Assembly: GCF_900105785.1 (NCBI RefSeq)
Contig: NZ_LT629799.1
Span: 620,001 to 684,000 of the forward strand
DNA length: 64,000 bases
Origin: Microlunatus sagamiharensis
GTDB lineage: Bacteria; Actinomycetota; Actinomycetes; Propionibacteriales; Propionibacteriaceae
Reading direction: 5' to 3'
Each line of letters starts with the position of its first letter. The stretch's first letter is position 1. Positions 17,859-63,016 of this stretch are shown here, piece by piece. The position numbers were made by a program, and so were the translations under genes. The notes beneath the pieces were generated by a model. That model did not search any database. It worked only from the letters and a program-made list of their open reading frames with translations, and was not told the origin of the DNA.

Positions 17859-17919
17859 GACCACTGGTCACTTGTGGTCGTTCTTGAGGCTCGCTAGCGA
17901 CCCCTAATGACCACTGGTC
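17859..17919 (+). repeat. 61-bp two-box element, copy A
   Basis: The structure is GACCACTGGTCA, 37 nt, then TGACCACTGGTC. The two quasi-palindromic boxes lie exactly 50 bp apart. Copy B at 18969-19029 matches it in inverted orientation, sharing the ends and about 24 of 37 internal bases, notably TGTGGTCG just inside the left box. It lies downstream of both clpX and the convergent DUF559-like gene. Confidence 0.75.
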
Positions 17920-17962: not shown

Positions 17963-18871
17963 TCAGGCCAGGCCCCAGCGTCGGAGGACTCGCTGTCGTC
18001 CGGCGGGTCTGAGCATCGAGGCGTTGAGCAGGCCCTCCCAGGCCTGCAGCCGGCAGACGTCCCAGGGCCGCCCGAGCAACTCGTCGCTCGCCCGGACGAT
18101 CGAGGCGCCCTCGTGGAGCAGGTGCCGCTTGGTGAAGCCGTGTCGCTCCCAACCCGCGAGGGCCATGGCACGGTCGCGGCTCAAGTCCGAGGCGTGAGTC
18201 AGCGGCTCGCGGTGGATGCCACCGTCGTACTCGTGGACGCGTCGCGTGCCGCAGATCCAGAGATCAGCGCGAGCCACGAAGCGTCCGTGCTTGTCCGTCA
18301 GCTCGTGCTGCGGCTCCACGGGGATGTCCGCAGCGTCGTGAAGCATGCGCATCACGGACTCCCAGGCCGACTCGCTCCGCGGGTCGATCAGCGGGATCAA
18401 CGCCCTCAGCGCAGGCGCACCGCGGCGGCGGGTGCCAGACGACACCTGGGCCAGTTCCTCGACGGTCACGTCGCCCTGGCGGACCGCTGAGTCCGCGAGC
18501 ACGATCACGTCCAGCGGCGTGAGGTCGCGAGCGAGGGCGAGCAGGGTCTCGGCCGGTGTGGTCAGACGTAGCCCGCGAAGGTCACGCATCTCCGGAGGGT
18601 GCGGATGGCGGTAGACGAGTGCTCCGGGCCGCCGCGGTCGGGGTTCCGAGGAGGGCATAGCCGCGAAGACCGGGTGCGGTGGCGCCTCCGGCAGCCACCA
18701 GCCGTACGCATTGGCGGCGGTCAGATGGGTGAAGCCCGCCGTCGCCGGCAGGACGAGCGTCCATGCACGAAGCAGGTCGTCGCCGGCGAGCGTCGTGCCG
18801 CGCGGAGTCCACAGCCCGCGCGCCACGCGGTCCCAGGTCCGCCGCGGAGCCTTGCCGAGTACGAGATCCAC
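17963..18871 (-). CDS. DUF559-like, AbiEi-type protein (putative endonuclease fold), start uncertain
   Basis: About 302 aa from GTG 18871, or 345 aa from GTG 19000. The N-terminal half (PRRTWDRVARGLWTPRG, FTHLTAANAYGWWLP) resembles the winged-helix and linker regions of AbiEi-type actinobacterial proteins. The C-terminal half (RADLWICGTRRVHEYDGG, then IHREPLTHASDLSRDRAM) resembles the DUF559/Vsr-like nuclease fold, with the acidic residues and the D..RD pattern. Such proteins are numerous in actinobacteria and their function is unproven. The later start is preferred because the upstream codons run through repeat copy B. Neither start has a Shine-Dalgarno. The gene is flanked by inverted 61-bp repeats. 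Confidence 0.7.
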   Translation of the reverse strand: MDLVLGKAPRRTWDRVARGLWTPRGTTLAGDDLLRAWTLVLPATAGFTHLTAANAYGWWLPEAPPHPVFAAMPSSEPRPRRPGALVYRHPHPPEMRDLRGLRLTTPAETLLALARDLTPLDVIVLADSAVRQGDVTVEELAQVSSGTRRRGAPALRALIPLIDPRSESAWESVMRMLHDAADIPVEPQHELTDKHGRFVARADLWICGTRRVHEYDGGIHREPLTHASDLSRDRAMALAGWERHGFTKRHLLHEGASIVRASDELLGRPWDVCRLQAWEGLLNASMLRPAGRQRVLRRWGLA

Positions 18872-18968
18872 ACCAAGGTCGTAAGGAGGACGCGCGGATC
18901 GTGCCGGTCCGACGGCGGACTGTGGACGAGGCCGCCGGCCGCCTGTGGAGAAGCCCCGCTCGTCGACC

Positions 18969-19029
18969 GACCACTGGTCAGTAGAGGGCGGTTTCGCCAC
19001 TCAGGAGCGACCACAGATGACCAGTGGTC
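18969..19029 (-). repeat. 61-bp two-box element, copy B (inverted relative to copy A)
   Basis: GACCACTGGTCA, 37 nt, TGACCAGTGGTC, with boxes again exactly 50 bp apart. Read on the minus strand it aligns with copy A at 17859-17919. It covers the upstream region of the DUF559-like gene and the alternative start at 19000. Confidence 0.75.
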
Positions 19030-55486: not shown

Positions 55487-55900
55487 GTGATCTACTCGCT
55501 GGCCTACGAGAGCCAGGCCTCGGTCCCCTTCACCGAGCCCGACCTGCTGGACCTGCTCGACCAGAGCCGGACGAATAACGCCGGGCGCGGCGTCACCGGG
55601 ATCCTGCTGTACCGCCAGGGGACCTTCCTGCAGGTCCTCGAGGGCCCGCGGGAGAAGGTCGAGGAGCTCTACGCCACGATCTCCGCCGACACCCGGCACC
55701 ACGCGGTCGACACGGTTCTCGTCGAGGACCGGCAGGAGCGCCGCTTCCCGGACTGGACGATGGGCTTCGCCGACGTCGACGGCCACCTCGGCGACGTCGA
55801 CGGCTTCAACGACGTGCTGAGCTCGGTGCAGGGTCCCGACGGCGAGGACAGCCCGCAGTTCCGCCAGCTCCTCGCCCTCTTCGGCAACGAGGACGACTGA
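55487..55900 (+). CDS. BLUF-domain blue-light photoreceptor
   Basis: A 137-aa single-domain protein. It carries all key flavin-site residues of BLUF domains: Tyr7 (LAYES), Asn31 (SRTNNAG), Gln49 (TFLQVLEG), Trp90 and Met92 (DWTMGF). ITGILLYRQG and the RHH segment near residue 70 also match. BLUF domains bind FAD and shift the Tyr-Gln hydrogen-bond network on blue-light absorption. No output domain is fused, so it must act through a partner, which is not evident nearby. The last 40 residues are probably the capping helices. Confidence 0.92.
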   Translation: MIYSLAYESQASVPFTEPDLLDLLDQSRTNNAGRGVTGILLYRQGTFLQVLEGPREKVEELYATISADTRHHAVDTVLVEDRQERRFPDWTMGFADVDGHLGDVDGFNDVLSSVQGPDGEDSPQFRQLLALFGNEDD

Positions 55901-55922
55901 CCCCGACGCGCGGCAACGCCTC

Positions 55923-56149
55923 CTGAGCTTGTCGAAGGGCCACGAGGCGACGCTCCCTGAGCTTGTCGAAGGGCCACGAGGCGACGCTCCCTGAGCTTGT
56001 CGAAGGGCCACGAGGCGACGCTCCCTGAGCTTGTCGAAGGGCCACGAGGCGACGCTCCCTGAGCTTGTCGAAGGGCCACGAGGCGACGCTCCCTGAGCTT
56101 GTCGAAGGGCCACGAGGCGACGCTCCCTGAGCTTGTCGAAGGGCCACGA
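55923..56149 (+). repeat. Tandem array of a 34-bp repeat (seven copies, last partial)
   Basis: The unit starts CTGAGCTTGTCGAAGGGCC and runs 34 bp. Copies begin at 55923, 55957, 55991, 56025, 56059, 56093 and 56127; the last stops after 23 bp. The copies are essentially identical and contiguous, with no spacers, so this is not CRISPR. The unit resembles the palindromic GAGCTTGTCGAAGGG element scattered between genes in many actinobacteria. 34 is not a multiple of three and no gene reads through it. Confidence 0.9.
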
Positions 56150-56152
56150 AGT

Positions 56153-56180
56153 GGTTGGCGTCGATGCGCTCACGCCAACC
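56153..56180. terminator. Hairpin between the repeat array and inverted copies
   Basis: GGTTGGCGT/ACGCCAACC is a perfect 9-bp stem with a 10-nt loop. It lies in the convergent gap between the BLUF gene and the aldose epimerase gene and could terminate either. Confidence 0.5.
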
Positions 56181-56188
56181 TCTGACGA

Positions 56189-62802: not shown

Positions 62803-62857
62803 AAGTGGTCCGTGCAGAGCCCGACGGGGCCCTCCGGCGGCCGCTTTCGGACCACTT
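62803..62857. repeat. Inverted repeat downstream of proB
   Basis: AAGTGGTCCG (62803-62812) and its exact complement (62848-62857) are 10-bp arms around a 35-nt GC-rich spacer. The arms contain GTGGTC/GACCAC, as do the boxes of the 61-bp element 68 bp further on. It may terminate proB or be related to that element. Confidence 0.5.
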
Positions 62858-62924: not shown

Positions 62925-62985
62925 GACCACTGGTCACTCCTCGTCGGCGGTACGCCGCGTACGCGACCACTGGTGACCAGTGGTC
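62925..62985 (-). repeat. 61-bp two-box element, copy C (solo)
   Basis: GACCACTGGTCA, exactly 37 nt, TGACCAGTGGTC, with the boxes 50 bp apart as in copies A and B. On the minus strand GTGGTCG follows the first box as in those copies; the rest of the interior is diverged. A third box-like GACCACTGGT at 62965 makes a 23-bp palindrome with the right box (62964-62986). It lies upstream of the DUF1905 gene, 31 bp before its start. Confidence 0.7.
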
Positions 62986-63016
62986 GTGACCACGGTCGGC
63001 TTGGGAGGATGAGCCC

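Follow-up and report, generated by a model that had tools for sequence, protein, structure and literature searches.

The two-box elements of the window

The stretch of DNA analysed here, referred to as the window, comprises 64,000 nucleotides of the 4.4-Mb genome of the soil bacterium Microlunatus sagamiharensis (G000; NCBI RefSeq assembly GCF_900105785.1, contig NZ_LT629799.1, positions 620,001 to 684,000 of the forward strand). It harbours three copies of a 61-bp element, two of which flank a single gene, whereas the third lies between proB and the DUF1905 gene together with a related element. The features are as follows.

17859-17919, no strand assigned: 61-bp element downstream of the nuclease-type gene, between it and the clpX stop
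17963-19000, minus strand: gene for a 345-aa protein (longest ORF) with a predicted AbiEi-type N-terminal region (model residues 28-206) and a predicted Vsr/I-Bth0305I-type nuclease domain (about 208-312; conserved E210, E214, D246, E257)
18969-19029, no strand assigned: 61-bp element at the 5' end of the nuclease-type gene, overlapping the first codons of the longest ORF, so that the true start is probably further in
62804-62856, no strand assigned: element with a 53-bp core, AGTGGTC...GACCACT, without the GACC/GGTC ends
62925-62985, no strand assigned: 61-bp two-box element between proB and the DUF1905 gene, with its 53-bp core at 62929-62981
62925-62935, no strand assigned: left box, GACCACTGGTC
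62964-62986, no strand assigned: perfect palindrome with 11-bp arms, made of the conserved inner half-site CGACCAC and the right box
62975-62985, no strand assigned: right box, GACCAGTGGTC

The boxes of the element between proB and the DUF1905 gene are 50 bp apart from start to start, and a repeat search grouped this copy with 17859-17919 and 18969-19029, where the same spacing is present. The palindrome reads CGACCACTGGT-G-ACCAGTGGTCG and is centred on G62975. By chance, 0.07 boxes and 0.01 two-box cores are expected in a shuffled window, against 6 boxes and 4 cores seen. An earlier note had described the proB copy as a solo third copy with a mostly diverged interior, and these observations are confirmed with two corrections. 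Firstly, a second element (AGTGGTCC...GGACCACT, 53 nt), with AGTGGTC boxes like those of the M. flavus (G005) elements, lies only 68 bp upstream in the same intergenic region, and "solo" is thus right for identical boxes but not for the element class. Secondly, the interior is not wholly diverged, since CGACCAC just inside the right box is shared by most copies (1.0-1.7 bits at most of these positions), so the palindrome extends an old inner half-site rather than being new. The window also contains seven copies of a 34-bp tandem repeat at 55875-56183, the central ones being 96% identical, and a search against Rfam identified only two tRNAs in the window and no match at the elements.

Genome-wide occurrence and fixed spacing

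In the whole genome the box GACCASTGGTC occurs 41 times, against 12 hits for the control pattern, and 36 of the 41 form 18 pairs at exactly 50 bp. A search allowing three mismatches in the 20 fixed positions found these 18 pairs with none, two more at three mismatches and 3 control hits, while a search at two mismatches again gave 18. A looser core search gave 19 intact cores, the extra one being 62804-62856, and about one plausible decayed copy at 475855. The sharp genome-wide peak at 50 bp, which the earlier note had named as the test of its proposal that both boxes are recognised together, is thus absolute in this genome, and that proposal is supported.

All copies share a 53-bp core, ASTGGTC-N39-GACCAST, which is here extended by GACC and GGTC. 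About 11 bp inward of each box lies a second conserved block (TGGTCG on the left and CGACCA on the right in G000), so that each arm is a bipartite site of about 22 bp, while the middle carries little information. Notably, the motif CGACACGCCG or its complement recurs in the variable middle of elements from different box families and genomes (G000, G001, G002, G005 and locus L138), for which no explanation was found. A different inverted repeat, CGAGCGGTAGGTTGC...GCAACCTACCGCTCG, is located beside one of the elements (locus L040, upstream of 1976; G000:C1 near 248700) and may represent another repeat family.

Other genomes have the same plan with other letters, including AGTGGTCAGCTG, GAGTGCTGA, GAGTGGCGC and GGTGGCGGC, and searches that allowed ranges of 17 to 21 lengths returned almost only one length. 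The GAGTGCTGA family had 14 copies in G002 and 6 in G007, all 55 nt with 21 lengths allowed, and none in 18 other genomes of the genus. The AGTGGKC family was mostly 53 nt, with a few at 52, 54 or 55, in G001, G005, a Cellulomonas (G022) and a Nocardioidaceae genome (G023). The GAGTGGCGC family had 36 copies in five genomes including Aeromicrobium camelliae, 30 of them at 55 nt, and none in two control genomes. The GGTGGCGGC family reached up to 48 copies in genomes of the Nocardioides group; the listed copies were all 53 nt except one of 54, often in arrays with a period of 73-75 bp, and none were found in G000, G010 or G172. In G002 (G002:C1:67132-67570; locus L101 1501-1940), GAGTGCTGA-type elements alternate with GCAACTGCGG-type elements in a mosaic cluster, and both families flank genes of the same protein family in that genome. 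Such tandem and mosaic arrays are reminiscent of BIME/REP clusters, although sequence, geometry and associated protein are unrelated.

The flanked gene and its predicted protein

The gene flanked by the other two window copies, which the earlier note had missed, has clpX and a glutathione-peroxidase-like gene as neighbours. Pfam and NCBIfam gave no match for its protein, a PDB sequence search gave nothing, and two of nine family members touched DUF559 weakly, while PADLOC gave AbiEi with an E-value of 1.5e-7. The AlphaFold model (mean pLDDT 76.7) matched AbiEi over residues 28-206 (6y8q, Z 8.8 over 160 residues, but rmsd 6.7) and, over residues 211-310, the catalytic domain of the homing endonuclease I-Bth0305I (3r3p, Z 8.8 at 2.4 A over 92 residues), with Vsr (1cw0) at Z 7.2. 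Foldseek gave no match with E below 0.001, and the fold assignment therefore rests on VIA-align Z near 9 and on conserved residues, E210, E214, D246 and E257 being invariant in nine relatives. No intron or intein context was seen, and the association with dispersed short repeats instead of a single homing site differs from that of the EDxHD homing endonucleases.

AbiEi of S. agalactiae binds two 23-bp inverted repeats 3 bp apart, and the promoter of M. tuberculosis Rv2827c has pairs of 23-bp repeats 13 bp apart that Rv2827c binds (PMC7319586); the arms and spacing found here fit that pattern. In contrast to these antitoxins, no toxin gene partner was seen next to the gene, neither in the window nor at the same locus in G001, a nuclease domain is predicted to follow, and the sites are dispersed in dozens rather than confined to one promoter. 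Since AbiEi belongs to an anti-phage toxin-antitoxin family and the nuclease part resembles a homing endonuclease domain, the elements could alternatively act as target, decoy or protection sites of a defence or selfish-gene enzyme. This appears a remote possibility, as no partner toxin or methylase gene is next to the gene in the window, although none was looked for systematically, and as the 3' placement and the tandem arrays are not explained by it.

Association of gene and elements across genomes

The same locus beside clpX in G001 has the ortholog (71% identical) with elements on both sides, and other relatives of the gene, including a second copy in M. sagamiharensis, carry elements with their own box letters. 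A first scan with one protein found nothing, but an alignment scan worked. A flank test with 2 mismatches was too noisy, with 34 of 96 controls positive, and was replaced by a scored test in which 11 of 12 subfamily genes in the genus, 19 of 38 named relatives and 4 of 16 distant AbiEi-like genes exceeded the 99th percentile of 205 control intervals. As unrelated loci share boxes, crossing left and right flanks of different loci did not give a valid control, and reversed flanks were used for a further sample of 48 genes from an order-wide search. Of these, 25 passed a threshold passed by 0 of 96 controls, and in 24 of the 25 the left and right elements have the same length. About half of the sampled genes did not pass this test, and both the named-locus and order-wide samples are phylogenetically clustered. 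The genes with flanking elements include relatives in Microlunatus, Nocardioides, Cellulomonas, Aeromicrobium and others; box letters differ by lineage, but core length stays near 53 bp.

Among 294 genomes of the order, 10 had at least three AGTGGKC-type cores and 9 of these carried the gene, which was found in 59 of the 294 (Fisher p = 2.6e-6, a value made too small by shared ancestry). The exception, G220, has 4 cores without a gene hit at E <= 1e-30. Box similarity follows protein similarity (Mantel r = 0.27, p = 0.0012), as expected from coevolution or from common descent of the locus alone. It is also noteworthy that the M. flavus ortholog (locus L073, G005:C15:371991-372914) has an in-frame TAG and EYN instead of EYD, although its flanking elements are intact and G005 holds 22 elements with AGTGGTC boxes.

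These distributions bear on the possibility that the boxes are terminal inverted repeats of a classical insertion sequence and that the gene is a passenger caught between two copies. Short dispersed elements with inverted ends, and a gene between two copies, do resemble a composite transposon. However, the same protein family lies between matching elements in many genera with different box letters, and a passenger would not track its carrier like that. The ends are also perfect while the middles diverge, which is the reverse of decaying copies, and this explanation is considered very unlikely.

Duplex recognition or hairpin

The earlier note left open whether the two boxes are recognised by one protein complex or as RNA or DNA structure, and the evidence leans to a protein on duplex DNA. 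Elements could be selected as hairpins, such as transcript terminators or mRNA stabilisers, like many REP sequences, with the spacing reflecting stem-loop geometry. In agreement with this, every copy folded has a strong predicted stem (z -3.7 to -5.2 in six copies), sites are biased to gene 3' ends, and in G023 the variable sixth box position matches in both boxes of all 12 copies. However, inner arms within a copy do not pair significantly better than arms swapped between copies in any of six genomes, and in G000 and G022 they pair worse. In G000, 7 of 18 copies have C-C or G-G at the centre of the would-be outer stem, the centre bases being complementary in 11 of 18 copies against 9.7 expected; the outer boxes are otherwise invariant and carry no information either way. 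Nor does an RNA hairpin need a loop of one exact length. These results favour two independent recognition sites at a set distance on duplex DNA, and the hairpin explanation is weakened to an improbable one but not excluded.

Placement and dispersal

By simple and admittedly crude gene calling, the sites in G000, G001 and G005 were 12 convergent, 12 co-directional and 2 divergent. Between G000 and G001 only the two gene-flanking elements share positions among the 61-bp copies, while the element between proB and the DUF1905 gene is shared with G005, whose copy has the same boxes and a different middle. At three other sites neither G001 nor G005 has the element; three of four checked sites lack it in relatives.

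The AbiEi-type protein might instead be a repressor or chromosome-organising protein binding two-box sites near many genes, its own included, in which case the elements would be regulatory sites kept by selection that do not move by its nuclease activity. AbiEi and Rv2827c repress through paired inverted repeats of similar size, the boxes are perfect in all 18 copies while the middles vary, and one element sits at the gene's own 5' end. Operators should, on the other hand, favour upstream and divergent regions, elements also sit downstream of the gene, few positions are shared between sister species, tandem near-identical copies occur, and a conserved nuclease site would be unexplained. Such dispersed operators are therefore thought unlikely, though they remain the foremost alternative.

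No clean empty site or insertion boundary was found, relatives being only about 83-88% identical near most sites and the intergenic regions differing more widely than by one element. No general target duplication was seen in 90 flank pairs. Apparent target duplications in the Nocardioides-group genomes G256 and G172 were mostly another long repeat, GTTGGTCGAGCAGCG..., and elements in these genomes (loci L179-L185 and L188-L190) are embedded in a long interspersed repeat, GTTGGTCGAGCAGCGAGGGCCGAAGGCTCGAGCG.... One element of G172 (G172:C1:3879434; locus L191 about 790-930, copy at 835) lies between two near-identical 37-bp copies of a gene's 3' end, including the stop codon, which is a possible insertion footprint.

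A possible gene-plus-repeat system

We consider it more likely than not that the element is a bipartite recognition site of the protein encoded by the gene that two of its copies flank, and that gene and elements form one system that works like REPIN/RAYT (REP doublets with REP-associated tyrosine transposases). The association and the geometry are documented here: inverted arms of about 22 bp held at one fixed spacing, dozens of dispersed copies with invariant boxes and free middles, and a gene of one protein family flanked on both sides by elements with matching boxes across several genera. By inference, two protein molecules would bind the two arms together through the AbiEi-type region, as AbiEi and Rv2827c bind paired 23-bp inverted repeats (PMC7319586), and the nuclease part would nick or cut DNA at the element. 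Repair or copying would then spread the element to other intergenic sites, while copies whose boxes decay would no longer be maintained, and the copy between proB and the DUF1905 gene would be one dispersed non-autonomous copy. All controls are computational, binding, cutting and movement have not been shown, and the absence of decayed copies also fits ordinary selection on binding sites.

As in REPIN/RAYT systems, short inverted-repeat doublets are dispersed between genes with a bias to gene 3' ends, are tied to a low-copy gene that is itself flanked by matching elements, have lineage-specific repeat letters and form tandem clusters. However, the protein has no detected Y1/HUH transposase domain and instead resembles AbiEi plus a Vsr-type nuclease, the elements have one fixed core length near 53 bp, and no test here showed hairpin pairing to be conserved. 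In the open-access literature, no paper was found that joins DUF559 with palindromic repeats in actinobacteria. Tentatively, and with somewhat less than even likelihood, these observations could represent a previously undescribed class of gene-plus-repeat system in Actinomycetota, in which an AbiEi-type DNA-binding region fused to a homing-endonuclease-like Vsr-type nuclease maintains and spreads populations of two-box elements with a fixed 53-bp core, as an independent counterpart of REPIN/RAYT.

REPIN/RAYT is the main known case of a bacterial gene that keeps a population of tiny repeats inside a genome for long periods. A second, unrelated enzyme family doing the same would separate what is general about such populations from what is special to one transposase. 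It would also suggest a function for a large set of uncharacterised AbiEi/DUF559-like genes in Actinomycetota and explain interspersed palindromes in Nocardioides, Microlunatus and relatives.
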